IMG/VR virus record: IMGVR_UViG_3300021961_007606 | Coordinates: 1 to 64,000 of that record | Source: a virus | Strand: one strand, 5' to 3' | DNA length: 64,000 nucleotides | Part shown: piece by piece, positions 10,955 through 31,997 of the stretch | Layout: each line of letters starts with the position of its first letter | How positions within the stretch are numbered: position 1 is the first letter of the stretch | The notes under the pieces: generated by a model | The model's input: only the letters and a program-made list of their open reading frames with translations | What the model was told of the DNA's origin: nothing | The model's database searches: none | Position numbers and translations under genes: made by a program

Positions 10955-10956
10955 GT

Positions 10957-12843: not shown

Positions 12844-12849
12844 TGTAAC

Positions 12850-13329: not shown

Positions 13330-13343
13330 ACAAATATAAATAG

Positions 13344-13499
13344 CTACTTACTAACTCCAAATAGCTTTAAAAAGGATTTTAAAGATAGCCTCTTTGTAGC
13401 TGCAAACCATCTTGCTGCTGTTAGTCTGGACTCCTCTGACTTCTTTGCAATAGGCTCTTGCTTTTTATCTGTACGTGAATAAAAGTAAAATAGTTTCAT
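13344..13499 (-). CDS. 51-residue basic protein
   Basis: ATG at 13499 overlapping the upstream TGA (ATGA), TAG at 13344-13346. The peptide begins MKLFYFYSRTDKKQEPIAKK and continues with SEESRLTAARWFAATKRLSL. It looks like a small DNA- or ribosome-associated helical protein; similar short proteins occur in aquatic phages, as far as I recall. It fills what would otherwise be a gap between genes. Confidence 0.65.
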   Translation of the reverse strand: MKLFYFYSRTDKKQEPIAKKSEESRLTAARWFAATKRLSLKSFLKLFGVSK

Positions 13500-13741
13500 C
13501 GTGTTCTAACTTTTAGTTTACCAATAGCAGTTAAGAACTGCTCTATAGTAAATATCTTAGGAGACATATCCGAACGTATCTTAATAAGAGGTAGTATTTC
13601 TGGCTGAGAGTCAACAATCTTCATGAGAGTTGTTAATCCAGTACCAGCCCAGAAAACACCAAAAGATGCTTCACCTAACAAATTAGCTTCGTTAAGAGCA
13701 TCCTCTTCTGTATCTCCAGGCATTAGTAAGAAGTATGTCAT
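13496..13741 (-). CDS. Conserved phage protein of unknown function
   Basis: An 81-residue protein: MTYFLLMPGDTEEDALNEAN, LLGEASFGVFWAGTGLTTLM, then IFTIEQFLTAIGKLKVRTR. I recall similar short proteins from aquatic T4-like phages, without a function. It overlaps the genes on both sides and bridges the accessory region and the glycan cluster. Confidence 0.65.
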   Translation of the reverse strand: MTYFLLMPGDTEEDALNEANLLGEASFGVFWAGTGLTTLMKIVDSQPEILPLIKIRSDMSPKIFTIEQFLTAIGKLKVRTR

Positions 13742-15039
13742 TATTCAAATTTAAAGGTATCTATTTTTAAAAGAGTATCTATTGTAGAAACTCGTTTGTA
13801 GTCTTGTGATAAGTCTTGTTTTTGTTTTATCTCAATAACCAATGGACCAAAAGCAAAACTACCTACCTCAGTATCAGCCACAATAGAGTGTATATTCTCT
13901 ATAACCTTCTTCATTTCCTCATTAAATCCTTTTACAAATTCAGAATACTTGAAGGAGATAACTACGTCAGTATTAGGTTTAGTGTTTGCTTGTATTTTTT
14001 CAAAAAAGTTAGTTGGATTAAATAGTAGTTGTTTATTTAACCAATGTTCTGTTGAATACTTCCATCTAAGATTACTATAATAGTGAGCTTCAAATTCAAT
14101 CTGACTTGCGAGTTGATGTGCTACAGATTCATCATTCAAATGCATCTTCTTACAAAAAGGTTCTAAAAATTTAAGTAAGTTTAAATCTGCATACCGATCC
14201 AAATCAATATTAAAAGCAATATCGTAAACTGGTTTAGGATGATGTCCAAAAAATCCCCACTTTCTAATAAACCTTTTTAGTTCTTGATGATCAGCTTGGT
14301 GTTGTAATTCATTCTTATAATCAGCTTCTGGGTTTTGTTTAAACCAATCGGTACCTCTACTTGATATACAAGTAAAATGATATACACATGCATTCCAAGA
14401 TTGAATCATAGCCAATCCACACAAATCCATTCTCAATATTGTATCCGAATCCTCTCGTGAGCATCTAAATTGTGTATCAAATCCACCCAATTTATCAAAC
14501 CATGCAGATTTGTATATTGCAAAAGGTGCAAAATGACCTACCATGTTGGGTCTATTTTCTTTCTGCAATGTATCAACATAAGCATTAAACTCTTCGTATT
14601 TAAACTCCTCAGGAATTAATCCAAAATCCATTACAATCTTTTCGGGTGAAGGTGGATGCAATGGTGGTTCAATTCGAGCACAAGCTAATACAGTATTCTC
14701 GTTAATGTTATCTGATATATGTTTATCAAAATCCTTTCCAACAACCATATCAGATTGCAAATAACATACTATATCGTTAGTAGCTGCATCAAACATTACA
14801 GAGACGTTACGTTGACTACCTATTGGAAATCCGGTAGTGTTTTTACATATTCTAAGATTAGGTAGCTTTTGTTTAATCTCAAGCAATGCTTCATATGTAT
14901 TTTGGTTGTCTGAATCTATAAACACCAAGATCTCATGTCTTTTAATGTCTGTGTGATCTTGTAAAGACCTTAATACTAGTTTAGTATATTCCTTTTCGTT
15001 ATTAGCAGAAGCAATACAAAATGTGATTGGTTTAGTCAT
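13741..15039 (-). CDS. Family 2 glycosyltransferase
   Basis: A 432-residue protein with a GT-A fold N-terminal half: ITFCIASANNEKEYTKLVL, the nucleotide-binding EILVFIDSDN (about 37-46), and DIVCYLQSDMVVGKDF (about 89-104) where a Q-S-D takes the place of D-x-D. GGFDTQFRCSREDSD (about 186-200) resembles the acceptor-side E-D of GT2 enzymes. The C-terminal 200 residues are unassigned. It is the last gene in transcription order of the glycan cluster. Confidence 0.82.
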   Translation of the reverse strand: MTKPITFCIASANNEKEYTKLVLRSLQDHTDIKRHEILVFIDSDNQNTYEALLEIKQKLPNLRICKNTTGFPIGSQRNVSVMFDAATNDIVCYLQSDMVVGKDFDKHISDNINENTVLACARIEPPLHPPSPEKIVMDFGLIPEEFKYEEFNAYVDTLQKENRPNMVGHFAPFAIYKSAWFDKLGGFDTQFRCSREDSDTILRMDLCGLAMIQSWNACVYHFTCISSRGTDWFKQNPEADYKNELQHQADHQELKRFIRKWGFFGHHPKPVYDIAFNIDLDRYADLNLLKFLEPFCKKMHLNDESVAHQLASQIEFEAHYYSNLRWKYSTEHWLNKQLLFNPTNFFEKIQANTKPNTDVVISFKYSEFVKGFNEEMKKVIENIHSIVADTEVGSFAFGPLVIEIKQKQDLSQDYKRVSTIDTLLKIDTFKFE

Positions 15040-15812
15040 ATTAAGTTGTGATAAGAGTTTATAATACCATCATACAAACCTCGATACGATAAACCAAGAT
15101 CTGTGAAAGTACCAATGTAATCTTCAGCTAATCCTGGCTGAAGGGTTGATATCGCTAATCTATTTTTACCTAAACGATTGATTATGCTAGCAATATCGTT
15201 AAGCGTGTACTTTTCTTTATAGCAACAATCTATCTCTTTAGGAACATTGTCTGTGTGAATGTAATGCTCAATAAGAGTTCTTAAATCCTCCATATAGAAA
15301 AAGTCCATACGTTTATTTTGATGAATTATTAAATCTTGCTCAGTTGCATATCTTTGCAAGTTTCCTTTAATAAATCTTCTATCTAATTCATTCTCATCAA
15401 ACACAGCAAAGATCCTAAGGTTATAGCAATTAGGTTTATCTAGCATAGAATATCTTATTGCCAACTTACTTATTCCATACCATGTTGTAGGTAACCCTAT
15501 TTCAGCACCAGATCCAAAGCTAATAAACTTAGCATGTTGAGCTGCGTACTTGTAAACATTATGGTACATAATAAAGTTGTTATCAATAACACTCGAAGTT
15601 TCAGATTGCAATCTGTTTCCTCCTTCAATAGCAGTATGTATTACTACATCGTATACTTTGTTGTTAAAATAATCTTTACAAGCTTTTTGATCCAAAAGAT
15701 TCACATCCTGTCTTGTTACAGTTTCAATAGTACAGTCTTTTAGCCCTTTTGCTAAACTTTTAGCTATATAACCATTGCCACCCGTTATTAAGACTTTTTT
15801 TAGGATAGCCAT
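15036..15812 (-). CDS. NAD-dependent sugar epimerase/reductase (extended SDR)
   Basis: A 258-residue protein with the Rossmann start KKVLITGGNGYIAKSLA (5-21), VVIHTAIEGG, FGSGAE and the catalytic Tyr-x3-Lys as WYGISK (about 110-115). It is shorter than most epimerases (about 310). It probably reduces or epimerises a nucleotide sugar made by the neighbouring enzymes. ATGA overlap with the GT2 gene, and a 13-bp overlap with the ThDP enzyme. Confidence 0.82.
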   Translation of the reverse strand: MAILKKVLITGGNGYIAKSLAKGLKDCTIETVTRQDVNLLDQKACKDYFNNKVYDVVIHTAIEGGNRLQSETSSVIDNNFIMYHNVYKYAAQHAKFISFGSGAEIGLPTTWYGISKLAIRYSMLDKPNCYNLRIFAVFDENELDRRFIKGNLQRYATEQDLIIHQNKRMDFFYMEDLRTLIEHYIHTDNVPKEIDCCYKEKYTLNDIASIINRLGKNRLAISTLQPGLAEDYIGTFTDLGLSYRGLYDGIINSYHNLI

Positions 15813-17530
15813 TGTATATTTTTTAATTCACCAGGAATAAACTTACCATCAGCATCTAAGGATGCTACAACTTTAGGTTCATGGTATTCGTTTGGATCTG
15901 TAAACACTTCTAGTACACACGGACCTTCTTGAGATAAAAATTCATTTAGTGTAGGTTGAATTGCGCTATTTGAATTAATACTCATATAAGGTAGTTCATA
16001 TGCTTTAATAACTTTTTCAAATTTAGGAAAAGATACTCCACTATTTTTTTCAGATGCAACAAACCTTCCATCAAAAAAAGCTTTTTGAGATATCTTGATT
16101 GATGTATAACCATCGTTATTTAGTAGTATTAGCTTAATAGGTAGGTTATAGTGCTTCATTGTTTGAAGTTCGTGTATATTAAGATGAAGACTGCCATCAC
16201 CTTCTAAACATATAATTTTATGATGAGAAGCTGCTCCTAATGCAGCTGGTAGTCCATATCCCATTGGAGCACATCCAGTATTTGTTACGAGTCTTTGATC
16301 TCCATGCAAATCCAACACCTGCATTGTAACTACATTAGCTGATCCATCACTTGTGACAATATGATGATCGCTTGGCATTACTTTTGATAGCTCTTCAATA
16401 AAAGCATAATGACTAACATAGTCACCATTTTCCCTATGCCTCTGTAGCACCCTTGGTGATGTTGCTTTGAGATCATTACAAAAATCTATCCAACTTCTGC
16501 TAGCTACTGGTAACTCTGAACTTAAAATAGCTTCAAGAAACTCTTTAGCATCTGATTGAATCTTCAGGTCTGTAAACAAGGTTGGCTTATCCAATTCAGC
16601 TCTATCCACATCAACATGAACTTTATATGCTTGTTGAGCAAATCCTTTAAAATTGTATCCTGTTTGTCTTACATACAATCTAGTACCAACAGCTATAACA
16701 AAATCACACTCACTCAATAGTTTATTTGCACAGATTTGAGCATGCGTACCAAATCTACCATAATACTGACTATAATCTTCATTTACTAAGTCGTTACCAT
16801 TAACAGCTGATATAACTGGGATACTGGTCTTGGTTAGTGTCTTGTGCAGTTGTTCAACTCCACCACTCAATCTAATACCATTACCAACAATCATTAAAGG
16901 CTTCTTTGCACTTTTCCACTTTTCTAGCAAAGTATTGATATCAGTTGACATTGGTCTGTGTATAAATTTAGGATCCACATAACCTTCTAGCATTTGTGGA
17001 TTGATGTCAGCTGATTGCACATTGAGAGGTATGTCTATCCACACTGGACCAGGTCTTCCTGTAATTGCAAGCTTACAAGCTTTTTCCAAATGATATCTAA
17101 TCTGCGATGGATCATTTACTTGTACAGCATACTTAGTCATGTTCTTCACCGATTCAACAATGTTAAACTCCTGATCACCAAGCTGCCTCAAAGGTAGTTT
17201 AGTATAGTCTGTGGTCATTTCTTTGTTAACCTGACCACTAACAACTATGACTGGAATAGAATCTAACCAGCTACACAAAGTACCTGTAATTGCGTTAGTA
17301 CCTCCTGGACCACTTGTTACTACACAAGCTCCAAGTTTATTATTCATACGAGCATAGCCTTCTGCTGCTATTGCAGCTGCCTGCTCGTGGTGGGTTGCTA
17401 CATACTTAACTCCTTCGGTATGTCCTAAGGAATCTATCAAAAATATACAACCTCCACCGGATACGGTGAAGATGGTATCGAGCTTGTATTCATCCCTTAA
17501 AAACTGAATAACATAATCAGATACTTTCAT
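15800..17530 (-). CDS. ThDP-dependent enzyme (acetolactate-synthase-like, YerE-type candidate)
   Basis: A 576-residue full-length three-domain ThDP enzyme. The cofactor-activating Glu lies in THHEQAAAIAAEGYAR (about 47-62); GPGGTNAITG follows; the ThDP/Mg site is EGDGSLHLNIHELQ with LLNNDGY (about 437-470). Relatives join a two-carbon unit from pyruvate to an acceptor. Within a sugar cluster containing RfbH, a YerE-like role, adding a branch to a 4-keto-3,6-dideoxy sugar, is more likely than branched-chain amino acid synthesis. The exact substrate is inference. Confidence 0.8.
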   Translation of the reverse strand: MKVSDYVIQFLRDEYKLDTIFTVSGGGCIFLIDSLGHTEGVKYVATHHEQAAAIAAEGYARMNNKLGACVVTSGPGGTNAITGTLCSWLDSIPVIVVSGQVNKEMTTDYTKLPLRQLGDQEFNIVESVKNMTKYAVQVNDPSQIRYHLEKACKLAITGRPGPVWIDIPLNVQSADINPQMLEGYVDPKFIHRPMSTDINTLLEKWKSAKKPLMIVGNGIRLSGGVEQLHKTLTKTSIPVISAVNGNDLVNEDYSQYYGRFGTHAQICANKLLSECDFVIAVGTRLYVRQTGYNFKGFAQQAYKVHVDVDRAELDKPTLFTDLKIQSDAKEFLEAILSSELPVASRSWIDFCNDLKATSPRVLQRHRENGDYVSHYAFIEELSKVMPSDHHIVTSDGSANVVTMQVLDLHGDQRLVTNTGCAPMGYGLPAALGAASHHKIICLEGDGSLHLNIHELQTMKHYNLPIKLILLNNDGYTSIKISQKAFFDGRFVASEKNSGVSFPKFEKVIKAYELPYMSINSNSAIQPTLNEFLSQEGPCVLEVFTDPNEYHEPKVVASLDADGKFIPGELKNIQWLS

Positions 17531-18533
17531 AGACTTCGTTTATTGCTTCTTTTACTATACTAAAATCTTTTATGTTTACCAAACTTGGTTCGTCACCAAC
17601 AAGTATCATTGTTAGCTCTCCAGTACTTTTTTTATCAGATTTAACAATCTCAATAAGTTCATTAAAATCAAACCACGATTTCTCAAGCTTTAAATCACTT
17701 TGGCGTATTAAATTAATTCCAGTGGTTAGAGTTAGCTCGTAATCCTTTACTTTGTATCCCATCTTGTATGCTACCCTTGTTGCAATCATGCTACCTAAGA
17801 TCACACCAAGTCCATGCGGAATACTATGATTGGATGATGATTCAAGAGCGTGTCCAAATGTATGGCCATAGTTTAACCACTTACGTTCATTCTTATCAAA
17901 CTCATCTAAAGCTAGTATGCTCGCTTTGTATTTTAAACCATTTTGGATTCGAGCACTAACATCAGCAACAGAAAACTCTAACATTTTTCCTTGCAATATG
18001 TAAAACTTGTAGATCTCACCCCATCCACTCAAGTAATCGGTTCTTGAAAGAGTGTTTACAAAGTCTGGGTAGATTAGTACTTCTTTTGGTGGGTAAAACG
18101 TACCTAATATGTTTTTTCTATTTGCATGGTTTATAGAGGTCTTTCCACCAATACAACTATCTACTTGCGCTAGTAGTGTTGTTGGAATAAGGGTATAATC
18201 AATACCACGACAATATATTGATGCAACAAAGCTAACAAGATCTTGAATTATTCCACCACCTACTGCTACTAATTTTGTTTTTATATTTGCTTTATTGTTG
18301 ATCAATATATTAGATAGTTTATCAACCATCTTTAGAGTTTTATTAGCTTCTTCTGCTTTAACATATATACATGATATGTTTTTACAAAGCTCTGGGTAAA
18401 GATGTGCTATATTCTCATCCACAACAACTACAGTATTGTCTGCACTAATGTGCTGCTTTATTTCTTCAATACTCTCTACCCAGTTAATTGTATAATTTGA
18501 AAACTTTGATTGTATTGTTAATAAGTTGTACAT
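17517..18533 (-). CDS. Sugar-phosphate cyclase (3-dehydroquinate-synthase family)
   Basis: 338 residues. NAD-binding AVGGGIIQDLVSFVAS (about 90-105), TLIPTTLLAQVDSCIGGKTS, NRKNILGTFYPP, and the zinc site in LNYGHTFGHALES (about 220-232) are typical of DHQS. The family also includes cyclases acting on sedoheptulose 7-phosphate or glucose 6-phosphate. No shikimate genes accompany it; it overlaps the ThDP enzyme and the SDR. A cyclitol or unusual keto-sugar product is inferred. Confidence 0.85.
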   Translation of the reverse strand: MYNLLTIQSKFSNYTINWVESIEEIKQHISADNTVVVVDENIAHLYPELCKNISCIYVKAEEANKTLKMVDKLSNILINNKANIKTKLVAVGGGIIQDLVSFVASIYCRGIDYTLIPTTLLAQVDSCIGGKTSINHANRKNILGTFYPPKEVLIYPDFVNTLSRTDYLSGWGEIYKFYILQGKMLEFSVADVSARIQNGLKYKASILALDEFDKNERKWLNYGHTFGHALESSSNHSIPHGLGVILGSMIATRVAYKMGYKVKDYELTLTTGINLIRQSDLKLEKSWFDFNELIEIVKSDKKSTGELTMILVGDEPSLVNIKDFSIVKEAINEVYESI

Positions 18534-19153
18534 GAAAAACCTCCATCTATTCTGATATTTTGTCCACTAATATAGTCATTGTCAATCGTGAGTTGATAAA
18601 CCAATTTAGCCACTTCTTCTGGTTTACCTAAACGACTAACTGGAATATTGTGAATTATTTTTAATACATCTTCTGGCGTATTGTTTTTAAAAGTCAAGTC
18701 TGTTTCAATAAATCCTGGTGATACTGTATTAGCTAAAATGTTCCAATGACCATACTCAGCAGTGATTGCTTTTGTTAAGGCATGTAAAGCATTTTTACTT
18801 GCACTGTATGCCAACCTTCCTTGCTTAGCAGTATCAATCCAAACACTCCCAATGTTAACAATCCTACCGTACTGTTTGTTTATCATGTAAGGAATGCATT
18901 GTTGAATAATCTCCAAAGGTGAATAGTAATTCACCCTCATAACTTCATCAGAGGATATACTATCTAAAAATTTAATAGGATTAATCCCAGCACAATTTAT
19001 GACAATATCAAATTCACGATTGGTTAAGTTTACTGGTTGTGTTAAGTCTAACTCTGTTCTTGTTGGAGAATATACAGAATGGCCATTGCTGACAAATACA
19101 TCCACAATGGCCTTTCCAATTCCTCGTGAGCCTCCTGTAACTAATACATTCAT
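18518..19153 (-). CDS. Short-chain dehydrogenase/reductase (FabG-like)
   Basis: 211 residues: VLVTGGSRGIGKAIVDVF (3-20), NCAG (about 51-54), a catalytic Ser in VNIGSVW, Tyr-x3-Lys as AYSASKNA (about 114-121) and PGFIETDLTF. A classical NAD(P)-dependent oxidoreductase. It overlaps the cyclase gene by 16 bp and the aldolase gene by one base, suggesting it acts on their product. Confidence 0.88.
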   Translation of the reverse strand: MNVLVTGGSRGIGKAIVDVFVSNGHSVYSPTRTELDLTQPVNLTNREFDIVINCAGINPIKFLDSISSDEVMRVNYYSPLEIIQQCIPYMINKQYGRIVNIGSVWIDTAKQGRLAYSASKNALHALTKAITAEYGHWNILANTVSPGFIETDLTFKNNTPEDVLKIIHNIPVSRLGKPEEVAKLVYQLTIDNDYISGQNIRIDGGFSCTTY

Positions 19154-19953
19154 TATTTGAAAGATACAGATTGATTGATACGATCTTGGATCATTTGTAT
19201 TCGTTTAATATCCTGATTAGCCATTGAGGTATAAAGTTCGTGCTTACACATCAACCACTCATACTCAAACATCTGAGCTTTTGATAAAGCTCTTGATAAA
19301 TTTTTTAATGTAATTGATGGATCAAACATTGCATAGCGAGTCTCAAACTTATCTAACAATCCCTCTGAGTGTAACTTTTTTAAGAAGGTTAGTGAGTTAG
19401 TTGATACAGCTCCTCCTAAACAAGCCTTTAGTCCTTTTTCTTTTACTTTAGCAAACACACCTTTAACCATCTTATACACTTCAGGTTCGTTTACATAGTT
19501 TCTATCTTTGTTCATCGATGAAACTAAATCTACACGACCAACAGTTACACCATACAACTCTCCAGCTTCTGGAGCATCTAACATAGCTTGGGCATTACCA
19601 ATAGCTGTAATTGTTTCTACATTTACATTTAATTGGATTGATGACAGTGTGTCTTCAGGAATATAAAGTTTAGCAGCTTGAACAAACTTTTTCAAACCAA
19701 ATTCAGATTCTACCATAGGAGCTACTAAACCCTTTACACCAATGATTGTTGAATCTTTTAAATCACGAATGGCTTCAGGACCACCAATCTTTAAAGTAAT
19801 TTTAGTTTTAGCTTGATTACAAACCTCTTTGAGACGGATTGTTTCGTTAAACAAAGCTCCTTCATCTTCAAAGCTGGTTTTTATACCTACTAGACCTTCA
19901 TTCTCAATTAAGTCAGTTAGGATTTTTACACACTTAAATTCTCTTGTATTCAT
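19153..19953 (-). CDS. HpcH/HpaI aldolase / citrate-lyase-type protein
   Basis: A 266-residue TIM-barrel-type protein: LVGIKTSFEDEGA, KITLKIGGPEA, VKGLVAPMVES, LNVNVETITAIGNAQAMLDA and LYGVTVGRVDLVSS, following the HpcH/HpaI or CitE layout with acidic metal ligands in the Glu-rich strands. These enzymes cleave or form C-C bonds using pyruvate- or acyl-type donors. The last 40 residues are a helical extension. With the ThDP enzyme and cyclase it suggests assembly of an unusual carbon skeleton. Confidence 0.78.
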   Translation of the reverse strand: MNTREFKCVKILTDLIENEGLVGIKTSFEDEGALFNETIRLKEVCNQAKTKITLKIGGPEAIRDLKDSTIIGVKGLVAPMVESEFGLKKFVQAAKLYIPEDTLSSIQLNVNVETITAIGNAQAMLDAPEAGELYGVTVGRVDLVSSMNKDRNYVNEPEVYKMVKGVFAKVKEKGLKACLGGAVSTNSLTFLKKLHSEGLLDKFETRYAMFDPSITLKNLSRALSKAQMFEYEWLMCKHELYTSMANQDIKRIQMIQDRINQSVSFK

Positions 19954-19956
19954 AGT

Positions 19957-20628
19957 TTATTTTTTTGTTATTATTGCAACTGCATATGCATCCTGGATAT
20001 CTGGGTATATCTCTATATTTTTAATGTTTGATTCAATATACGCTTTTTCTTCCGGTAATACAAATTTAGAGTTGATTTTTCCTGTATCTGCAAGCTCTTG
20101 TATTGCTCTGTACGTATCATCATTTCTAATGCAACATACCAGATTGTCCGGTATAGACATATCCTCTAATATGTAATAACCTCCTGACTTTGCGTACTTA
20201 AACAAGTGTCCAAGCGAAATCATTTGATGATTGTGCTCATGAGAACCGTCTTCTAATATAAAGTCAAACTGCTCAGAACCAAACGACTCGTACATTGCTG
20301 ATAATTGATTACGATCGGATTGATCAGCTTGAAAGAATTTTACTCTATCTTTTAAATCCACAATACATGGATGGGAATGCATGTTAAGTATATCCATAGT
20401 GTATATTTGAGCTTTGCTGAAGTAGTCGTACCACATATTGACAGATTGGCCACCATGTGCAGGCTCTAAGGATATACCAATTTCTAAAAGACGAATTTGC
20501 TCATTTCTCCATTTACTTAAATAACGTTGATCGTATATACTGGCATAGCCGTGTCTACTACCACCAGCATATGCAGAACCTTTGTCGGTTTGATATTGAT
20601 TTGCTAAATCATCTAATGTTTTTACCAT
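19957..20628 (-). CDS. Class I SAM-dependent methyltransferase
   Basis: 223 residues: LANQYQTDKGS, then HGYASIYDQRYL, the SAM site LLEIGISLEPAHGGQSVNMW (about 47-66), YTMDIL as the acidic loop, and QFDFILEDGSHEHNHQMISL. It belongs with the sugar O-methyltransferases of antibiotic and O-antigen clusters (MycE/cephalosporin-hydroxylase-like group). It lies 3 bp from the aldolase gene. Likely methylates the deoxy sugar. Confidence 0.82.
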   Translation of the reverse strand: MVKTLDDLANQYQTDKGSAYAGGSRHGYASIYDQRYLSKWRNEQIRLLEIGISLEPAHGGQSVNMWYDYFSKAQIYTMDILNMHSHPCIVDLKDRVKFFQADQSDRNQLSAMYESFGSEQFDFILEDGSHEHNHQMISLGHLFKYAKSGGYYILEDMSIPDNLVCCIRNDDTYRAIQELADTGKINSKFVLPEEKAYIESNIKNIEIYPDIQDAYAVAIITKK

Positions 20629-21590
20629 ATAAATTTATTTTTATAATAATCCACTATACCACCAATTTCCTGTCCAAACACCTTCTTAGGTTCCCAACCT
20701 AAAGATCTAAGCTTTGCGTCATCTAAAGCATATCTTACATCCTGACCTGGACGATGACATGAAAAATCCACATAATGATCCACATAATGAAAATCTTCCC
20801 AGTTCTTAACCTTACTAAACTCTGTAATAATAGCCTTTACAGTTTGAATATTTTGTTGTTCAAACCCACCAGCTACATTATAGATCTCACCAACTTGTCC
20901 TTTTTCAATAAGAGTCATCACAGCTTCTGCAGTATCGTCTGCATGTAACCAGTTTCTATATGGTGTACCGTTGTTGTGAAGAGGTATCTTACGACCTATG
21001 TTTAGCAATTTTACGGATTTTGGTATTAGTTTTTCAACATACTGACCAACACCATAGTTGTTAGTTGGTCTTATGATCATATAAGGAACGTTGTGAGTTC
21101 TACCCCAAGCCACTACTAACATATCTGCAGCTGCTTTTGTTGCTGAGTATGGGTTGCTTGGTCTGAGCATATCAGTTTCAGAATGAGCTCCTTCAGACAC
21201 ATCGCCGTATACCTCATCTGTACTAAAATGTATTAAGATAGGCTTACTTGCATTCTCTCCTCTATGGTTTTTAATAAGTTCAAGAAGATTGTGTACTCCA
21301 TCAATATTCGACTTCACAAATTCAACACTACTTGCTATTGAATTTCCTACATGAGTTTCGGCTGCAGTATTAATTACATAATCGCAATCATATAAAAATT
21401 TCAAGTCGTTTATATCACAATGTACAAACGAAAAGTTAGGGTAACTTTTAAACTCTTTTAATAAATCTTTGTTAGCTGCATAGGTTATTTTATCAACTCC
21501 TTTTACATACCAACCTCTCTCTAAACACTTTTTAGTTACATAAGACCCAATAAAGCCTAAGCAACCAGTTACATATACTATTTTTTTCAT
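20622..21590 (-). CDS. dTDP-glucose 4,6-dehydratase-like enzyme
   Basis: 322 residues from the ATG at 21590 (a longer reading starts inside the GT11 gene). NAD-binding VTGCLGFIGSYVT, the catalytic ST-DEVYGD segment (about 127-135), Tyr-x3-Lys in NPYSATKAAAD and RPTNNYGVGQY are those of RfbB-type dehydratases, which make 4-keto-6-deoxy sugars. This supplies the type of substrate RfbH-like dehydrases use, although RfbH normally acts on a CDP-sugar. Confidence 0.87.
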   Translation of the reverse strand: MKKIVYVTGCLGFIGSYVTKKCLERGWYVKGVDKITYAANKDLLKEFKSYPNFSFVHCDINDLKFLYDCDYVINTAAETHVGNSIASSVEFVKSNIDGVHNLLELIKNHRGENASKPILIHFSTDEVYGDVSEGAHSETDMLRPSNPYSATKAAADMLVVAWGRTHNVPYMIIRPTNNYGVGQYVEKLIPKSVKLLNIGRKIPLHNNGTPYRNWLHADDTAEAVMTLIEKGQVGEIYNVAGGFEQQNIQTVKAIITEFSKVKNWEDFHYVDHYVDFSCHRPGQDVRYALDDAKLRSLGWEPKKVFGQEIGGIVDYYKNKFIW

Positions 21591-22426
21591 ATCACTGGGT
21601 TGTTTATATTTTTCCATGTTTGTGGATAATAGTTTCCATTTAAGTGTGACCACGGACTAGTAGCTTTCAGATAGTTTGTAGGACACATAATTGTTTTATT
21701 AGTATTTTTACTCTTATAGGCTGCCCACCAACTATAAGAACTATTTGCTGTTATAAAATGATCACACAAACTCATTAATATAAGATCTACATAATCAGAT
21801 CCTGGTTCTATAAAGGTAACAGAGTCACCTTCAATAAGGTTTTCTTTGCACCATTGTATGTCATTTGAAAATACAACAAAATAATAACGCTCTATGTTGT
21901 CTGTAAAGCTTTGCAATGCTTCGTTATAATACGATACATCTAATTTACAAAAGTGATCATGTTGTGGTAAAAGATAATCACCTCTACGAACATGAATTGC
22001 CACTAGCTCTTTATCTTTAGGTAATATCTTTTTCTTAATACTTGTAGCTGCTTTTAAATGTATTGGATTCCAATCCCAATTAAATACATCACTAGCACAT
22101 ATATTATGCCAATAGCAATAACTATCAAATCTATTAACTATGTTGTAGTTTAGTTTTGGATCCAATCCATACACATTACTATCTACAAGAAGACGATCAT
22201 TTGGACGAAAGTCTATAAAATCAACAAACTCACTATCAGCAGCAGTGTGAATAGGTAAATCAACTAGTTCTGCAAATTTAAAACCATGACCCATAGACAA
22301 ACTAGATTCTGGAAACACAATAGTCTTATTGGTTTGCTTAGCAACAGCATACAAAGATGCATACTGCTGCAATTGCGAACCCAAGTTTCCAGACTCTCCT
22401 ATTGTTTTAAAGGTTATATAGCTCAT
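21587..22426 (-). CDS. Family 11 glycosyltransferase (alpha-1,2-fucosyltransferase-like)
   Basis: 279 residues with the GT11 motifs GNLGSQLQQYASLYA (13-27), the donor-phosphate motif AIHVRRGDYL (about 142-151), FSNDIQWCKENL and ANSSYSWWAAY (about 225-235). GT11 enzymes transfer L-fucose from GDP-fucose. A GDP-fucose-synthase homologue lies at 23762-24688, so donor and transferase are both encoded. Overlaps RfbB-like and RfbH genes by 4 bp each. Confidence 0.87.
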   Translation of the reverse strand: MSYITFKTIGESGNLGSQLQQYASLYAVAKQTNKTIVFPESSLSMGHGFKFAELVDLPIHTAADSEFVDFIDFRPNDRLLVDSNVYGLDPKLNYNIVNRFDSYCYWHNICASDVFNWDWNPIHLKAATSIKKKILPKDKELVAIHVRRGDYLLPQHDHFCKLDVSYYNEALQSFTDNIERYYFVVFSNDIQWCKENLIEGDSVTFIEPGSDYVDLILMSLCDHFITANSSYSWWAAYKSKNTNKTIMCPTNYLKATSPWSHLNGNYYPQTWKNINNPVI

Positions 22427-23772
22427 TCAAATTTTGCAAAAAACTTATTTATAACTTCTTCGATATAGTTTAATTGCTCTTCAGTGATTCCAGGATATAC
22501 TCCTAAAAAGAAAGTATCTTTTGTTGTTTTAGTAGCTATAGGAAACATCTCAGCTGGATTGGTGTAATGAGTAAATGCCGGATGCTCAGAGTAAGCCGGA
22601 TGAAACAATGCATTACCTGTAAAATAGGATCTTGTTTGTATCTTAGCTCCTTCAAGCCAATCTACTAATTCGTTCTTTTCAAAAGGAGATCCATCTTTTA
22701 CTGTTAAAAGAAAACCAAACCAACTAGTGTCTGCTTTTTCTAACGAATATGGTAAGTGAAAGTATTTTATATACTTTTCAAAAATACTATACAATCTCTT
22801 AAAGTTTGCTTTTCGCTTTGCGTGCATCATATCCAACTTCTCTATTTGTTTTAAACCAATAGCAGCTTGCATCTCTGTAGGTTTTAGATTATATCCAATT
22901 TCATCAAACACATACCTATGATCATAAGTCATCTCTGGATAATTCTTGAACCACGTATTCATACGCATACCGCAAGCTGTTCCACAAACCACATTACCAG
23001 GCTTAATTGTATTACAATAGCAAGCACGACCCCAATCTCTTAAAGAAGCAAGTGCCATTCGATGTATACCAGTCGAGCAAGCAACAAAACCACCTTCGCC
23101 AGTAGTCATGTGGTGAGCTGGAAAAAAAGAACAAGTTGATATTTTGCCAAAAGATCCTAAGGGCTTGTTGTCCCAAGTTGAACCAAGAGCATCACAACAA
23201 TCTTCAAGAAAAATTAAGTTGTATTTTTTTACTATTTCCATCAAACGATCCATGTCAGGAGGATTGCCTAACACGTGAGCAAAAATAATACCTTTAATTT
23301 CTTTATCCTTATCATTCTCAAGAAGAGACTCTACCATATCTAGATTTAGATTTAAGTTTGGAAGCTCTACATCAACAAACACAGGAACATATCCATTTTG
23401 TAGTAGTGGATTTATTGTGGTAGGAAAACACACTACTGGTGTAATAAACTTACTACCTGCAGGAAGATTTCCTCCTCTCTTTGTTTTAAGCAAAGATACC
23501 ATTAGTAAATTAGCTGAGCTACCTGAGTTAACAATAATGCCGTCTGATTTACCTAAATGAGGTGCAAATCGTTTTTCAAACTCACGACCTTTTTCACCCA
23601 AAATAAACCAACTATCTAACAAAGTCTCTACAGCAGAGACATATTCGTCACTGTTGAAATAAGGACCTGAGTACTGAACCCAGTCCTCTCCAGCACGCCA
23701 AACTTTGTTAGCTTGCATTTCTTGTACATAACCCTTAATGGATTCAAGAATTTCTTCTTTTTTATTTTTCAT
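22423..23772 (-). CDS. rfbH: RfbH-type CDP-4-keto-6-deoxyglucose-3-dehydrase
   Basis: 449 residues from the ATG at 23772. It is a DegT/DnrJ-fold enzyme in which the PLP-binding Lys is replaced by His: CSFFPAHHMTTGEGGFV (about 220-236), the hallmark of the PMP-dependent 3-dehydrase E1 (RfbH). It also keeps Cys residues after DWGRACYC (about 255-262) and in a later C-x3-C, as in the [2Fe-2S] cluster of E1, and YDHRYVFDEIGYNLKPTEMQ. It removes the C3 hydroxyl on the way to 3,6-dideoxyhexoses. Its usual reductase partner RfbI is not in the window. Confidence 0.88.
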   Translation of the reverse strand: MKNKKEEILESIKGYVQEMQANKVWRAGEDWVQYSGPYFNSDEYVSAVETLLDSWFILGEKGREFEKRFAPHLGKSDGIIVNSGSSANLLMVSLLKTKRGGNLPAGSKFITPVVCFPTTINPLLQNGYVPVFVDVELPNLNLNLDMVESLLENDKDKEIKGIIFAHVLGNPPDMDRLMEIVKKYNLIFLEDCCDALGSTWDNKPLGSFGKISTCSFFPAHHMTTGEGGFVACSTGIHRMALASLRDWGRACYCNTIKPGNVVCGTACGMRMNTWFKNYPEMTYDHRYVFDEIGYNLKPTEMQAAIGLKQIEKLDMMHAKRKANFKRLYSIFEKYIKYFHLPYSLEKADTSWFGFLLTVKDGSPFEKNELVDWLEGAKIQTRSYFTGNALFHPAYSEHPAFTHYTNPAEMFPIATKTTKDTFFLGVYPGITEEQLNYIEEVINKFFAKFE

Positions 23773-24688
23773 ATTGTAATTGTTTCTTTTTTTCAATATA
23801 GACTTTTTTTATTCCATCTGCAAATTTTGTAAACTCAAAATCAGGCAGATACCTTCTCATTTTTGCAATAGACACGTCCTTTCTAAACTGACCATCTAAT
23901 TCAGGTGTATCGTATACAATCTTCCAGTCTTGCTTACCTAAAACTTCTAAAGTGATAGTAGCAAGCTCATGGATAGTATAAGTTTCGGGATTAGATACGT
24001 TAAAGGATTCGTTAATCTCATCATATGCCATTGTACTAATTATAGCAGCAACATCACCAGCATACGTAAACTGTCTCAATGGCTTTCCAGTACCGAGTAG
24101 CTTAATGGTTGTTCCTCCCACCTTCTCTTGTTCTATAATTTTATCAAGTAAAGCAGTGACATAGTGAGCTTTATTATTTTTATGAGCATCCAACTCACTA
24201 TATAAGTTGGAAGGAGTAATATAACAGTATTTGGTGTTGTATTGTTTGTTGTAAGCTTCAATTAAGCTAATCATGCATCTTTTGCTGTATGCATATCCAA
24301 AGTTTGTTGGAGTAGGAGGCCCTTTAAATATATCCTCCTCGATCATAGGATATTTATCTAACCTATCAGGATATGCACAAGTACTTGAAAGAGCTATTAA
24401 TCTTTCTACTCCAACCTCGTGAGCAGCTTTAATTATATTTGTATTGATTAATAAATTTTGTTCTAAATACTCAACTGGTCGATTGATATTATCTTGAATA
24501 CCGCCGACAACACCAGCTAAGTGAATAATGAGGTTTGGTGAGCAGTCTTTAACTAACTCTAAAGTTTTATTGTAATCAGTGAGATCACCATCTTTACTAC
24601 TACGATAAATTGCTTGTGATAGTGGCCGCATTATCTTTTTTAAATGCTTGCCAACTGTACTTGTACCACCTGTAACTAAAATAATCAT
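23762..24688 (-). CDS. fcl: GDP-L-fucose synthase-like epimerase/reductase
   Basis: 308 residues, close to the usual 310-320. VTGGTSTVGKHLKK, HLAGVVGGI, the SSTCAYP active-site segment (about 108-114), TNFGYAYSKR with Tyr-x3-Lys, and PSNLYS are characteristic of GDP-fucose synthase (WcaG/Fcl), which turns GDP-4-keto-6-deoxymannose into GDP-L-fucose. No GMD dehydratase is visible here, so the substrate must come from elsewhere or differ. Confidence 0.85.
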   Translation of the reverse strand: MIILVTGGTSTVGKHLKKIMRPLSQAIYRSSKDGDLTDYNKTLELVKDCSPNLIIHLAGVVGGIQDNINRPVEYLEQNLLINTNIIKAAHEVGVERLIALSSTCAYPDRLDKYPMIEEDIFKGPPTPTNFGYAYSKRCMISLIEAYNKQYNTKYCYITPSNLYSELDAHKNNKAHYVTALLDKIIEQEKVGGTTIKLLGTGKPLRQFTYAGDVAAIISTMAYDEINESFNVSNPETYTIHELATITLEVLGKQDWKIVYDTPELDGQFRKDVSIAKMRRYLPDFEFTKFADGIKKVYIEKKKQLQYEK

Positions 24689-24696
24689 AATCTTTG

Positions 24697-25044
24697 TTAT
24701 ATACGATTGTAGTCGTCTTGTATTCTTATAATATCATCCTCATCAAAAGAGTCACCAGTTTGTATTTCAATAAACACTAATTTAGTGTCTCCAAAATTAG
24801 ATATACGATGGGGAGTCATTCGAGGTATATTAGTGCCCATGCCTGTTGCCAGTTGCCAACTAGCACCACCACATGTAACTAAACCAACACCTTCTGTTAC
24901 ATACCAATGTTCTTCTCTTTTGGTATGGTATTGCAAAGACAGCTGTTGACCTGGATTAACTGTGAGTCTTTTTATTTTGCAATGATCATCTACATATAGT
25001 ATCTCAAAAGCACCCCATGGTCTTTCTTCTCTATAATTTTGCAT
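24697..25044 (-). CDS. Cupin, type II mannose-6-phosphate-isomerase-like
   Basis: A 115-residue single cupin: RPWGAFEIL, VNPGQQLSLQYHTKREEHWY (about 31-50, with His and Glu metal ligands), then RMTPHRISNFGD. It matches the C-terminal isomerase domain of ManC-type bifunctional proteins, which interconvert fructose- and mannose-6-phosphate and so feed GDP-mannose and GDP-fucose. The guanylyltransferase half is absent. Overlaps the GT2 gene by 14 bp. Confidence 0.85.
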   Translation of the reverse strand: MQNYREERPWGAFEILYVDDHCKIKRLTVNPGQQLSLQYHTKREEHWYVTEGVGLVTCGGASWQLATGMGTNIPRMTPHRISNFGDTKLVFIEIQTGDSFDEDDIIRIQDDYNRI

Positions 25045-25654
25045 ATAATTCGTTTTGCTTTTCTTGTTTTGCTATTGTTTTATGATGCTCTAAACAAAAA
25101 TCTACCTCTGCAGGTAGTGCTGCGAATTGCTTGTATCCATTTAATCTCTCATGGACTTTGTTGATCCACACAATCTCTGGTTTATTTTTATAAATGCGCC
25201 ATTGATAGTCTGGAAAGTTTATAAATCCATTTTCGTTTAGGTTCCATCCCCACCTTTGTATATGGTCAGCTGTAAGCCCCACTACGGTGTTTATTCGAGG
25301 AACAATATAAACATCTACATCTGGATTTGCTTCTAAAATACTGGGTAGGTTTTCGATTAAAGAATCTACGGGCATCTCATCCGCATCTATTTGAAAGATG
25401 TAGTCGCCGGTACAGTAGTTTGTGAGTTTATTTTTCCAATCAGCAAAATGTCTATCAAAAGCACCTTTATGCCAAACAAACTCACTATTAATAGAGTGTG
25501 TACGTAAGTACTGTTCTATTTCGGGGTCACCATTTGCTTCATCAAATAACACAACGATTTGATCCTCACTACGTTTTCTCTGAAGCAAAAAAGAGATTAA
25601 ACGTTGGATTTCTATAAACTCGTTGCAAACTGTAATAGCGTAACTAATTTTCAT
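25031..25654 (-). CDS. Short GT2-type glycosyltransferase
   Basis: 207 residues. ISYAITVCNEFIEIQRLISF, QIVVLFDE and DYIFQIDADEMP (about 84-95) with a D-x-D motif define a minimal GT-A domain, and WINKVHERLNGY follows. It resembles the WaaE/KdtX-like transferases in length. Position between the cupin and a zinc-ribbon gene ties it to the sugar cluster. Confidence 0.8.
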   Translation of the reverse strand: MKISYAITVCNEFIEIQRLISFLLQRKRSEDQIVVLFDEANGDPEIEQYLRTHSINSEFVWHKGAFDRHFADWKNKLTNYCTGDYIFQIDADEMPVDSLIENLPSILEANPDVDVYIVPRINTVVGLTADHIQRWGWNLNENGFINFPDYQWRIYKNKPEIVWINKVHERLNGYKQFAALPAEVDFCLEHHKTIAKQEKQNELYAKL

Positions 25655-25655
25655 A

Positions 25656-26147
25656 CTATGATTTGATAAATCCTAAAAACTTACAAGCATCGTAAAACTT
25701 ATCATTAGTAAATAACTGACCTGACTTCATATCAATACGACGAGTGTAATACTTGTCAGTTTGACCTGGAATAGGATATTTCTTTTGATCTTCAGTTGGA
25801 ATATCTACTGCAGGAGCAGCCATCCACTTCCAATCCTCAGAACTTGTACCATCAGGAAAGATGATACCAAAAGATGGAAAGTTGAGTACAATTGGATACC
25901 ATACTAATCCACGATCGTCAATCCAGCGAAGAGCTTTAATAAGTTCAGCTGTTGTAGCTTCATATTGTTTAACAAAGTCAGAATCTACTCTGTTTAAAGA
26001 AGTAGTTGTATATCCACACTCCATACACATGAAGCTATGAACATCCTCATTGTTTACTTTTTCTGTCTCCACAAAGCATTCTGGAGATTTACAGTGCGGA
26101 CACTCTATCTTAATAGGATCCGTACTCGAGACTGATTGATGCGCCAT
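25656..26147 (-). CDS. Zinc-ribbon protein
   Basis: 163 residues with a C4 ribbon (CPHCKSPECFV, then CMECGYTTTS, about 15-49), and a C-terminal half rich in aromatic residues (RWIDDRGLVWYPIVLNFPSF). Distantly like the ribbon protein at 7962-8366. Its location within the glycan cluster may be incidental. Confidence 0.6.
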   Translation of the reverse strand: MAHQSVSSTDPIKIECPHCKSPECFVETEKVNNEDVHSFMCMECGYTTTSLNRVDSDFVKQYEATTAELIKALRWIDDRGLVWYPIVLNFPSFGIIFPDGTSSEDWKWMAAPAVDIPTEDQKKYPIPGQTDKYYTRRIDMKSGQLFTNDKFYDACKFLGFIKS

Positions 26148-26349
26148 TGTTTTCTTGAGTAAATTCTTTAATTAAATTATACTGATTAATATCACCGATT
26201 ACAACAAATTTAGAGTAAACTTCTTCATTTTGTACATAATCCCAGTGGTATTCGATATCGTTTGCTGTTAAAGTTCCAATCAACAAGTTGTGTGAGAAAG
26301 GAGAATGAGTAAGCAAATAAAATCTCATTGTTTTGTTATCTGTTGCCAT
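26110..26349 (-). CDS. Protein of unknown function
   Basis: A 79-residue alpha/beta protein (MRFYLLTHSPFSHNLLIGTL, then a Tyr/Val-rich strand and a helix). It overlaps the zinc-ribbon gene by 38 bp and abuts the GT4 gene with no space. No family recognised. Confidence 0.6.
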   Translation of the reverse strand: MATDNKTMRFYLLTHSPFSHNLLIGTLTANDIEYHWDYVQNEEVYSKFVVIGDINQYNLIKEFTQENNGASISLEYGSY

Positions 26350-27660
26350 TTATTCTGTTTTTTTAAGTTTAGAAAGTTCAATTTTTTTAAGTTTAGGTAA
26401 TTGTAAACCTACTTGTTGAGGAAACTCTGGAATGCTTTTGTTTAGAATTTCTTCTAATTTTTTACTCATAGCATCCAGACTAAATTCGTTTTTAATAACT
26501 CGAGCTTGCTTTTTTCCTAAAACTTCATAGTTTTTATAGTCATCAAACACTGCTCGCAATACACTAGCTGCATATCCAAAATCTACACTCATCCACTGAG
26601 ATTCTTGTAGAATTACATTCTCCCAAGCAGCAGATGGGTGTACATTAGTCAATTGTCCAGGTAGTAATACAGCTTCTTTTAAGAAATCAATATGACCTGA
26701 CCAGTTTGTTGCTATAATAGGTTTTTGTGAAAGGCTAGCTTCTGCTAAAGGACGTCCATAACCTTCTCCTTTTGTAAGACTGACGTGAGCTTTGATCTTT
26801 GGGTGATTATAAAGAGAGTTCATTTCTTCATCACTTAAATCACCGTGCAATAGATATATGTTAGGTAAGTTGTTAGAGCTTACAGAACCAACTATCTGTC
26901 GAATCTTATTTAAGAGCTCATCGCGATCAATCGCACTAAAGTCTGCAGAAGATGTTTTTAGTATTAAAGCAGGTTGATTGTGAGAAGCTTTATTTTTAAA
27001 CGCTTCTAAAAAGACTCTAATTAACCCTGAGATGTTTTTTCTATCTTCTCCAAATTCACCATTCAACCAATGGCCTACAAATAAGAATGCAAAGCTCTCT
27101 TTAATACTTAACAATTCATCATTAATACTTTTATTAATTTCTTTTGTAGAATGATAAATATCTAAATCAACTCCTTCAAATAAAACTTCAATAGGCTTTA
27201 TTAATTTGATTTCTCCTTCAGGTTGTTGAGTTTGTTGATTTTGTTTCATCCACACTGAGTGCTGTAAAACATTCTTTGAATGCTCAGAAGAGGTCAATAC
27301 CAAATCCATACGATTACAGCCTTCAATCCAAGGAGCAGAAGCTATAGTAGTTTCAATACCAGCTGTAATACCGATATTAAATTTACCTAATCGTTGAAAC
27401 TCATTTGGAACTGTGATCTGAATAAAAATCTCAGGTTCTTTTTCTAGCTTTGGTTCTGTCAGCATACAGCTTAATATACCTTTATGCTTTTCGTTTTCAG
27501 GATCTAAAGCATTCATTGGAGTTGATCCCCAACGAGTGTTCCATATTTTTACATTATACTTACCTGATTTGATTAGGGAGTATGCAATGTCTCGTGATCG
27601 AGCTCCATAACCTGATACGGTTGCTACTGGAGCCATTAATAATAGTGTTGGTTTACTCAT
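26350..27660 (-). CDS. Family 4-like glycosyltransferase
   Basis: 436 residues with a GT-B fold. The N-terminal domain shows PVATVSGYGARSRDI, and the C-terminal nucleotide-sugar domain shows LFVGHWLNGEFGEDRKN, IYLLHGDLSDEEMNSLYNHP and LTKGEGYGRPLAEASLSQKP (about 293-312), the E-x7-E-type donor site. It overlaps the second GT4 gene by 4 bp; the two probably act in sequence. Confidence 0.85.
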   Translation of the reverse strand: MSKPTLLLMAPVATVSGYGARSRDIAYSLIKSGKYNVKIWNTRWGSTPMNALDPENEKHKGILSCMLTEPKLEKEPEIFIQITVPNEFQRLGKFNIGITAGIETTIASAPWIEGCNRMDLVLTSSEHSKNVLQHSVWMKQNQQTQQPEGEIKLIKPIEVLFEGVDLDIYHSTKEINKSINDELLSIKESFAFLFVGHWLNGEFGEDRKNISGLIRVFLEAFKNKASHNQPALILKTSSADFSAIDRDELLNKIRQIVGSVSSNNLPNIYLLHGDLSDEEMNSLYNHPKIKAHVSLTKGEGYGRPLAEASLSQKPIIATNWSGHIDFLKEAVLLPGQLTNVHPSAAWENVILQESQWMSVDFGYAASVLRAVFDDYKNYEVLGKKQARVIKNEFSLDAMSKKLEEILNKSIPEFPQQVGLQLPKLKKIELSKLKKTE

Positions 27661-29144
27661 AACTGTATGCTTATTCCTGATTTTTTATTCTTAAATTTAT
27701 CTATCTGCTTCTGTACATTATACAGATTAAATCTCTTTGGAGCAACCCAATTATCTAAGGTATTTTCTACTGCCTTAGTAAAACGCTTACACATTTGCTC
27801 AGCAGTTAAACCAGCTTCTTCAGACATAGCCCACTTACGACCAGCTAATCCGGCTTCTACTCGATCCTCCTCATTCATTATCCACCAATAGCGAATTGCA
27901 TCAGCAACATCTCGAATATCACAACGATCATCAAAGATGTATGGAGTAGGAATAGAACCTTGTAAGTTGATTGCTGCTGGAAAGACTGGTTTTGCCCATA
28001 CTCCATGCTTTTTATATTTGCCAGCATGATTAGTCGCAAAGTCCTCATTAAACTCAATCCAATTACCTTTTTCATCTTCAAAGCGACACTGATCTTGCAA
28101 ACCACCAGTCACATTGTTGATCAATACACGACCAGTCATTAAAGCCTCAGTACTACTTAATCCCCAACCTTCATTAGAAGCAATATTGATTACAGCATCA
28201 CAGCAGTTGTATAGTGTGTTTAAGTCTTCTGTCGATAACCTTGTATCGGTAAAAGTAATCAAATGAGCTATGTCAGGACACACAACATCAATAACTGCAT
28301 TGAGATCTGTACCATTTTCATCAACACGTTGTGTGTGCAATACAAATCTTACATCTGGTGTATTGATTTTTGGAAGACTATCGTAAAACAATTTGAAAGC
28401 TAAGATAGCATCAGAAGTCATTTTACGACGAATGTTACGGTTGTTGTAAAACAATACAAACTCAGGGTTAGCTCCATTGAAGAGTCTTTTTCGCATGAGT
28501 TGTACTTTTTCGTCTTGACGATCAATTGGAAAAAACCTTTCATGATTGATTCCGTGAGGTACATAGCAAGTTTTAGGTAAAGATTTACTAATCATTTCTT
28601 TTGGAGGATTAGAATCCAAATCCACATAATTTCCTTTACCTAAAACAAGTTTACTAATGTTAACAGACTGCTTACTAATACCCATTAATAGATCACAGGA
28701 TTCATAGTAAGGTCTGTTGTAGTGTGGAGCTGGAAGGTCATCCCATATATGATAGTAAAAGATTGGCATACGTTGCCGGATCTCAGAAGCCATTCTGTAA
28801 AGCCAGATCCAATAACGAGGATCTGTAAAATGAACAATAGCATCAATTTTATGACGCTCAAGTATTAATCTAATTAAGTCAGGATCTCCATATCCATTAT
28901 ATGGATAAATTATAATACTAGCATCCTCAACACCAACTTCTTTACCAACATCAGCACTCACATCAATAACCTTTCCTGCATCTGGATGGTTTATACCCGC
29001 TCCAACGTGAACAAAGTTAAACTTATGAGCATTACCTACGATAAGCTCTCGTGTCATTGTACCAATTCCTGATGGTAATCTTAGATCATCAGCAAGAAAC
29101 AGTATAGTCTTGCGATCTTCTTTTTTAATGTAACCTTCTTTCAT
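27657..29144 (-). CDS. Family 4 glycosyltransferase
   Basis: 495 residues, GT-B fold: LFLADDLRLPSGIGTMTREL at the N-terminus, FYYHIWDDLPAPHYN and CYVPHGINHERFFP in the linker, FVLFYNNRNIRRKM at the second-domain start and SNEGWGLSSTEALMTGRVLI (about 321-340) as donor-binding E-x7-E. It is the first gene in transcription order of the cluster, so a promoter may lie in the 46 bp between it and 29191. Confidence 0.87.
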   Translation of the reverse strand: MKEGYIKKEDRKTILFLADDLRLPSGIGTMTRELIVGNAHKFNFVHVGAGINHPDAGKVIDVSADVGKEVGVEDASIIIYPYNGYGDPDLIRLILERHKIDAIVHFTDPRYWIWLYRMASEIRQRMPIFYYHIWDDLPAPHYNRPYYESCDLLMGISKQSVNISKLVLGKGNYVDLDSNPPKEMISKSLPKTCYVPHGINHERFFPIDRQDEKVQLMRKRLFNGANPEFVLFYNNRNIRRKMTSDAILAFKLFYDSLPKINTPDVRFVLHTQRVDENGTDLNAVIDVVCPDIAHLITFTDTRLSTEDLNTLYNCCDAVINIASNEGWGLSSTEALMTGRVLINNVTGGLQDQCRFEDEKGNWIEFNEDFATNHAGKYKKHGVWAKPVFPAAINLQGSIPTPYIFDDRCDIRDVADAIRYWWIMNEEDRVEAGLAGRKWAMSEEAGLTAEQMCKRFTKAVENTLDNWVAPKRFNLYNVQKQIDKFKNKKSGISIQL

Positions 29145-29886: not shown

Positions 29887-29903
29887 TTTATATAAATATC
29901 TGA

Positions 29904-31981: not shown

Positions 31982-31997
31982 TTAGTATAAATATACT

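Follow-up and report, generated by a model that had tools for sequence, protein, structure and literature searches.

YerE-like lyases such as JanthE couple 2-oxo acids to ketones (PMC12188165); YerE itself acts on cytidine diphosphate (CDP)-3,6-dideoxy-4-keto-glucose, and ErwE prefers 4-hydroxy-2-oxo acids and acts on a 4-keto-3,6-dideoxy sugar (PMC12247030). Sugar gene clusters are also already known in phages, for instance in P-SSM2, with their product and target mostly guessed. Here we analyse a sugar and glycosyltransferase cluster (positions 13741-29144) in a stretch of viral DNA of 64,000 nucleotides, hereafter the window, which is part of the 71,707-bp IMG/VR virus record IMGVR_UViG_3300021961_007606. 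We read this cluster as a cassette-swapped phage glycosylation island that would make a C4-branched sugar for virion proteins, with the balance of the evidence tipping slightly in favour of this reading as a whole. What it adds is a named and testable chemistry (a C4-branched 3,6-dideoxyhexose), a carboligase swapped as a module and a cytoplasmic acceptor argued from missing export genes.

A sugar gene cluster in an immuto-like phage

The interval is filled by 17 minus-strand genes, namely 16 open reading frames (ORFs) of at least 115 amino acids (aa) and one of 79 aa, with overlaps, most of them by a few bases, at 11 of the 15 junctions between the larger ORFs (Table 1). The ORFs, profile matches and viral backbone confirm the original prediction of 17 contiguous, overlapping sugar and glycosyltransferase genes in a phage, and its gene calls were right: two GT2, one GT11 and two GT4-type glycosyltransferases, an RmlB/RfbB-like dehydratase, RfbH, an Fcl-like enzyme, a cupin, an epimerase, a short-chain dehydrogenase/reductase (SDR), a methyltransferase, a thiamine diphosphate (ThDP) enzyme, a cyclase and an aldolase. 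It did not recognize that the locus is a cassette or that it holds an interchangeable module for carbon-carbon carboligation.

The contig carries phage backbone genes (DNA polymerase A, DnaB, ribonucleotide reductase, 5'-3' exonuclease, tail sheath and tail tube), with GroEL, GroES and DNA polymerase A upstream of the cluster and the ribonucleotide reductase, DnaB, exonuclease and tail genes further out. Its DNA polymerase is 46.6% identical to that of Flavobacterium phage immuto, the nearest isolate and an Immutovirus of 160 kb, which also shares GroEL and matches the window in tail sheath and tail tube. By its gene content, the contig represents part of the genome of a large, immuto-like myophage, whose host probably belongs to the Bacteroidota. 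A megablast search of the locus against cultured phages gave no match. Bacterial contamination, a possibility raised by the original prediction, is ruled out because phages of independent metagenomes have the same flanking genes on both sides of the cassette.

Enzymes of a putative branched-sugar pathway

The predicted pathway would start with the RmlB-type dehydratase, which scores 295 bits against TIGR01181 (cut-off 365) versus 72 for the CDP type and would convert a nucleoside diphosphate (NDP)-glucose, probably host deoxythymidine diphosphate (dTDP)-glucose, into a 4-keto-6-deoxy sugar. RfbH would then take off the C3 hydroxyl. This removal of the C3 hydroxyl from a 4-keto-6-deoxy sugar has good support at the sequence level because RfbH exceeds the cut-off of equivalog NF011936 (445 bits versus 423); its best PDB match is a CDP-4-keto-6-deoxyglucose 3-dehydrase (3bcx), and it carries the Lys-to-His hallmark (SFFPAHHMTTGEGG; active-site stretch SFFPA[H]HMTTGEGG).

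A functionalized 2-oxo-acid unit would be made or completed by the aldolase, AroB-like and SDR enzymes. The aldolase, from a divergent family, meets the gathering score of PF03328 (33.9 bits versus 25), and its residues E113 and D142 are invariant across 11 viruses. In the AroB-like protein, the catalytic residues of the dehydroquinate synthase type are invariant, and its gene is paired with that of an SDR in several bacterial and viral loci. This enzyme might form a carbocycle either before branching, by building a cyclic donor, or after it, by closing the ring, and its cyclase role is the weakest link of the pathway. We found no literature that combines AroB-like with YerE-like enzymes, and the open-access papers searched contain no description of the bradyrhizose genes (PMC4743980).

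The YerE-like ThDP lyase would decarboxylate the 2-oxo-acid unit and attach the product to the C4 ketone. Its nearest solved relative is JanthE (8rph), at 382 bits versus 260 for the next (a 122-bit lead), and it has the HHEQ motif, with the activating Glu, as well as the GDG...NND motif. The adjacent reductase, together with the O-methyltransferase in some phages, would complete a C4-branched 3,6-dideoxy sugar of about ten carbons. The methyltransferase has no Pfam match and resembles the macrocin-type sugar O-methyltransferases MycE and demethylmacrocin O-methyltransferase (E 2e-20). Judging from this set of enzymes, a branched 3,6-dideoxy sugar is the likely product.

The predicted branched-sugar module and its carboligase replacements

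The interior of the window's cassette runs RmlB-methyltransferase-aldolase-SDR-AroB-ThDP-reductase, a module that RfbH usually accompanies. Alignment-based scans of IMG/VR, which succeeded where a single-protein AroB scan gave nothing, recovered the aldolase-SDR-AroB-ThDP-reductase order in about 19 other distinct uncultivated viral contigs. Compared with the window, most of these contigs have an aldolase of 73-85%, a ThDP enzyme of 70-77%, an SDR of 58-69% and an AroB of 49-57% identity, with lower values in L167 and L199 (aldolase 64-66%, ThDP 64% and AroB 40-41%). Some carriers also have the GT4 anchors; others are T4-like or have the module beside tail-fibre or helicase genes. Specifically, L145 is T4-like, with a T4-type polymerase, UvsX and an SbcC-like protein, and the module spans PolA-type and T4-like phages. 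In L140, RmlB and the aldolase are 82-83% identical to those of the window, versus 54% for the GT4b anchor and 34% for the zinc-ribbon anchor, a pattern that fits horizontal transfer of the module. The module order was found in no cultured phage, and the aldolase has no match in cultured phage records. Matches to AroB and ThDP in the phage collection, at 34% identity or less, look like bacterial sequence inside phage records and were rejected.

In the sister phage L010, the borders are the same and RfbH, RmlB and GT11 are 66-79% identical. In its RfbH-RmlB-ThDP run the ThDP enzyme is another one (34%), and the genes after it encode an acylating acetaldehyde dehydrogenase and an HMGL/DmpG-type aldolase. 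Together, two such enzymes usually supply 4-hydroxy-2-oxopentanoate, a donor of the ErwE type. A split transketolase takes the equivalent spot in about ten other viruses, beside a reductase, RfbH and RmlB; for two antibiotics, split transketolases have been proposed as the enzymes that branch a keto sugar (PMC12247030). Several independent replacements thus underlie the reading of an RmlB-RfbH-reductase scaffold with a choice of carboligase. Erwiniose has ten carbons (PMC8657720), and a six-carbon acceptor joined to a four-carbon donor unit would likewise total ten. More tentatively, large phages may share a mobile combinatorial pool for carbon-branched, possibly carbocycle-bearing, 3,6-dideoxy sugars, in which this scaffold and its interchangeable carboligases would diversify a soluble virion glycan, as a 'serotype' system of phage particles.

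In bacteria, the aldolase profile matches 7 of 398 Pseudomonadota and 8 of 74 Margulisbacteria genomes. Bacterial loci L228-L231 present rfbF-like, rfbG-like, rfbH, reductase, ThDP, aldolase, SDR and AroB genes, then GtrB-like and GtrA-like genes, the names RfbF, RfbG, GtrA and GtrB being given from size, start sequence and hydropathy with no profile search. None of the plasmid aldolase matches inspected provided a named counterpart of the complete module in bacteria. In trees resting on a limited sample that under-represents the bacterial distribution, the window falls in bacteria-free clades for ThDP (n = 23, support 1.0), AroB (n = 21, 0.998) and RfbH (n = 41, 0.998), with a clade support of 0.79 for the aldolase. 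The GC content of the cassette (0.345) is taken as equal to that of the backbone (0.352); on the trees and GC, recent bacterial capture of the cassette was judged unlikely. The RfbH clade takes in three short, phage-like contigs binned in archaeal (Thaumarchaeota) or Maricaulis metagenome-assembled genomes (L091, L092 and L093), which carry phage-clade RfbH and RmlB and, in L091 and L092, a GT4b relative; by these genes they look like misbinned phage.

Cassette swapping among related phages

The homologous locus of immuto occupies the equivalent genomic place (NC_055915, 49172-59988), and its first four genes are counterparts of GT4a, GT4b, the zinc-ribbon gene and GT2s, followed by different sugar genes. 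With GT4a as query, 75 viral loci were gathered from IMG/VR. The seven closest (61-76% identity) keep the order DNA polymerase-GroEL-GT4a-GT4b-Zn-GT2s where covered and diverge immediately after it; the downstream border GT2L-g81-g159-g209-g141-g196-endonuclease is also kept in two of them. In all, 8 close relatives combine the GT4a-GT4b-Zn-GT2s run with an interior unlike that of the window. The 364 proteins of 46 related cassettes form 136 families, 79 of them seen once and none present in half of the cassettes; of 666 pairs of cassettes, 351 have no family in common. This estimate of variability is conservative, since the set includes near-duplicates and loci found via module searches. Compared gene by gene, these genomes show a hypervariable, cassette-swapped island whose sugar-synthesis interior is interchangeable and bordered by conserved soluble glycosyltransferases. 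Most related phages retain the zinc-ribbon gene amid the anchor glycosyltransferases, and its product is a possible adaptor of the glycosylation system.

Proposed acceptor of the sugar and alternative explanations

Under the proposed mechanism, five glycosyltransferases would assemble a cytoplasmic oligosaccharide on proteins of the virion, either of its tail fibre or of its capsid, and the swapping of cassettes would alter the particle surface. A cytoplasmic acceptor is favoured because the phage cassettes encode no multi-pass membrane protein: a hydropathy count found none with at least three segments in 17 homologous phage cassettes. Applied to E. coli K-12 as a positive control, the same count picks out Wzx, Wzy, WzxC and WcaJ, and it also flags several proteins around the bacterial counterpart loci. 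No Wzx, Wzy, ATP-binding cassette (ABC) exporter, polyprenyl-phosphate sugar transferase, GtrA or GtrB was found in the cluster. Its likeness to an O-antigen locus, proposed in the original prediction, thus extends to sugar synthesis (NDP-sugar genes and several glycosyltransferases) but not to export, the flippase and polymerase or ABC exporter and the polyprenyl-phosphate initiating transferase being absent.

The sole PDB match of GT4a is the chlorovirus glycosyltransferase B736L (3oy2, E 2.4e-10); for both GT4-type enzymes, the Pfam match is slightly under the cut-off. In L138 and L144, a glycosyltransferase, a tail-fibre-assembly-like gene and a Gly-X-Thr collagen-like tail fibre lie within about 2-5 kb downstream of the module. 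Gly-X-Thr repeats are glycosylated in the collagen-like proteins of bacterial spores. The lack of membrane proteins, the chlorovirus likeness and these fibres favour a virion protein over lipopolysaccharide (LPS) or DNA, and our confidence in the virion as acceptor is about evenly balanced. The fibres, with long Gly-X-Thr runs, are encoded at L138:14151-15473 and L144:16507-18381.

Several points weigh against glycosylation of virion proteins with a branched sugar. Membrane segments were sought by simple hydropathy counting, the record is a genome fragment, host export machinery could yet carry the sugar to the surface, and the 71.7 kb of the window's own lineage contain no collagen-like fibre. 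In addition, the PDB similarity of the aldolase is marginal (E 0.095), leaving its reaction uncertain, and the best family of the AroB-like protein, TIGR04425 (AroB-related cyclizing phospholyase), is below cut-off (317 versus 400). The phage RmlB looks dTDP-type, whereas the known RfbH/YerE pathways are CDP-linked. Neither an E3-type reductase for RfbH nor a nucleotidyltransferase or CDP-glucose start (RfbF/RfbG) occurs in the cluster with its RmlB-type dehydratase, so that host enzymes must help.

Three other explanations can be envisioned. In host-surface remodelling, host export enzymes would put phage-made sugars on LPS or capsule and so block competing phages, as proposed for cyanophages and pelagimyophages (PMC2984593, PMC7824862, PMC7029224) and as the P-SSM2 'LPS' genes are usually read. 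The bacterial counterparts of the module adjoin GtrA/GtrB-like genes, that is, surface modification, yet flippase, polymerase, polyprenyl-phosphate transferase, GtrA and GtrB are all missing from the 17 phage cassettes, the 15-gene cluster of P-SSM2 likewise has no membrane proteins, and five soluble glycosyltransferases would require a host lipid carrier. We consider this explanation unlikely, though deserving of serious attention; among the targets offered by the original prediction, virion glycosylation stands and a change of the host surface is less likely.

DNA glycosylation, in which sugars on modified bases evade restriction and cassette swaps alter the modification, appears improbable. 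Homologues of FolE, QueE and QueD are encoded at 42021-42671, 44087-44893 and 45100-45567 (51-69% identical to immuto), which suggests 7-deazaguanine DNA modification; QueC and DpdA are not in the 71.7-kb record. Immuto also has QueC, QueF and DpdA, making 7-deazaguanine DNA plausible, and diversity would aid against restriction. However, the 7-deazaguanine route requires no sugar, five glycosyltransferases and several sugars better suit a protein-linked oligosaccharide, and searches of the cluster turned up none of the known DNA-glycosyltransferase families. An ordinary passenger cluster, with bacterial O-antigen genes newly captured and without a defined pathway, is very improbable: every enzyme type occurs in bacteria and RfbH-like genes (about 40%) are known in Synechococcus phages, but the viral ThDP, AroB and RfbH clades are bacteria-free within the limited bacterial sample, GC matches the phage backbone and gene order is preserved across unrelated phages.

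If the reading as a swapped island for virion glycosylation is true, the cluster would stand for a viral branch of chemistry of the YerE type, would supply new enzymes that form carbon-carbon bonds and would give phage particles a means of antigenic-style variation.

Gene content of the cluster and other features of the window

Table 1 Genes of the cluster and its conserved flanks (GT, glycosyltransferase; PLP, pyridoxal phosphate; PMI, phosphomannose isomerase; GDP, guanosine diphosphate)
Feature	Position	Strand	Evidence and distribution
Conserved upstream flank, to GroEL/ES and DNA polymerase A	29191..39966	-	Order shared with L008-L010, L012-L014 and immuto
GT4a, conserved anchor GT, 495 aa	27657..29144	-	75 IMG/VR relatives; 49% in immuto
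GT4b, conserved anchor GT, 436 aa	26350..27660	-	Pfam Glycos_transf_1 weak; 52% to immuto
Conserved 79-aa ORF between GT4b and zinc-ribbon gene	26110..26349	-	Similar-sized ORF in same place in L008-L010, L013, L014
Zinc-ribbon protein, conserved anchor, 163 aa	25656..26147	-	CxxC motifs; present in 42 loci
GT2s, small GT2, conserved anchor, 207 aa	25031..25654	-	PF00535; 56% to immuto
PMI-C-terminal-like cupin, 115 aa	24697..25044	-	PF01050, 97.7 bits
GDP-fucose-synthase-like reductase/epimerase, 308 aa	23762..24688	-	PDB 4b8w, E 1.9e-53; NF047922 below cut-off
RfbH, PLP 3-dehydrase (C3 deoxygenation), 457 aa	22423..23796	-	NF011936; 3bcx; Lys-to-His hallmark
GT11, 279 aa	21587..22426	-	PF01531, 100.8 bits
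RmlB-type NDP-glucose 4,6-dehydratase, 343 aa	20622..21653	-	TIGR01181; PDB 2hun
Sugar O-methyltransferase, macrocin/MycE type, 223 aa	19957..20628	-	PDB 3ssm, E 1.9e-20
Pyruvate-aldolase-like protein, divergent HpcH/HpaI, 266 aa	19153..19953	-	PF03328, 2.5e-8
SDR reductase, 211 aa	18518..19153	-	PF00106/PF13561
AroB-like sugar-phosphate cyclase, 338 aa	17517..18533	-	TIGR04425, 317 bits (cut-off 400)
YerE-like ThDP carboligase, 576 aa	15800..17530	-	Best PDB 8rph; HHEQ and GDG motifs
NAD-dependent epimerase/reductase adjoining carboligase, 258 aa	15036..15812	-	PF01370
GT2L, downstream border GT, 432 aa	13741..15039	-	PF00535; 60% in sister phage L084
Conserved downstream flank, g81-g159-g209-g141-84-aa ORF-g196-endonuclease	10043..13741	-	Order shared with L084, L085

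Outside the cluster, the window encodes two family-A polymerase-like genes (56007-57311 and 37729-39966), as does immuto, one full-length and one shorter and matching immuto gp001. The thymidylate synthase is in two pieces, an N part and a C part at 1242-1916 and 3008-3598 (PF00303 positions 1-107 and 105-265), separated by two ORFs, one of which (2258-2950) has an HNH-like motif; the gene is intact in the sister phage L084 (17485-18831). No Rfam intron match was found at the split, for which an intron and endonuclease invasion are both candidates.

Comparison with known systems

The 'LPS' genes of the Prochlorococcus phage P-SSM2 number 24 in two clusters (PMC2984593) and resemble the cluster analysed here in being a phage-encoded run of NDP-sugar epimerases together with GT1/GT2 enzymes; their 15-gene cluster has no membrane proteins. 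By contrast, that 15-gene cluster has no annotated RfbH, ThDP carboligase, AroB-like enzyme or aldolase, and its phage family and host are different. O-antigen conversion by phage GtrABC is likewise a phage-encoded glycan change, but its membrane proteins GtrA and GtrB are absent from the cluster described here. Chlorovirus capsid glycosylation of the B736L type also uses virus-encoded cytoplasmic glycosyltransferases; chloroviruses, however, are eukaryotic algal viruses, and the similarity to GT4a is distant (E 2.4e-10). The immuto locus has the same place and anchors (GT4a 49%, GT4b 52% and GT2s 56%), while its interior consists of aminotransferases, a methyltransferase, a pilin-glycosylation-like protein and an epimerase, without the branched-sugar module. 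The bacterial loci L228-L231 have the same core enzymes (34-46% identical), but with a CDP-sugar start and membrane transfer or flipping genes, and without the phage anchor glycosyltransferases. Finally, the YerE, ErwE and JanthE pathways (yersiniose A, erwiniose and caryophyllose) combine, as our cluster does, a 4,6-dehydratase, RfbH-type C3 dehydration, a YerE-like ThDP lyase and a reductase. These are bacterial cell-surface pathways on CDP sugars, whereas our cluster belongs to a phage, lacks export genes and has an RmlB-type dehydratase, a GDG rather than the CDG motif of JanthE in its ThDP enzyme, and an additional AroB-like cyclase and aldolase.

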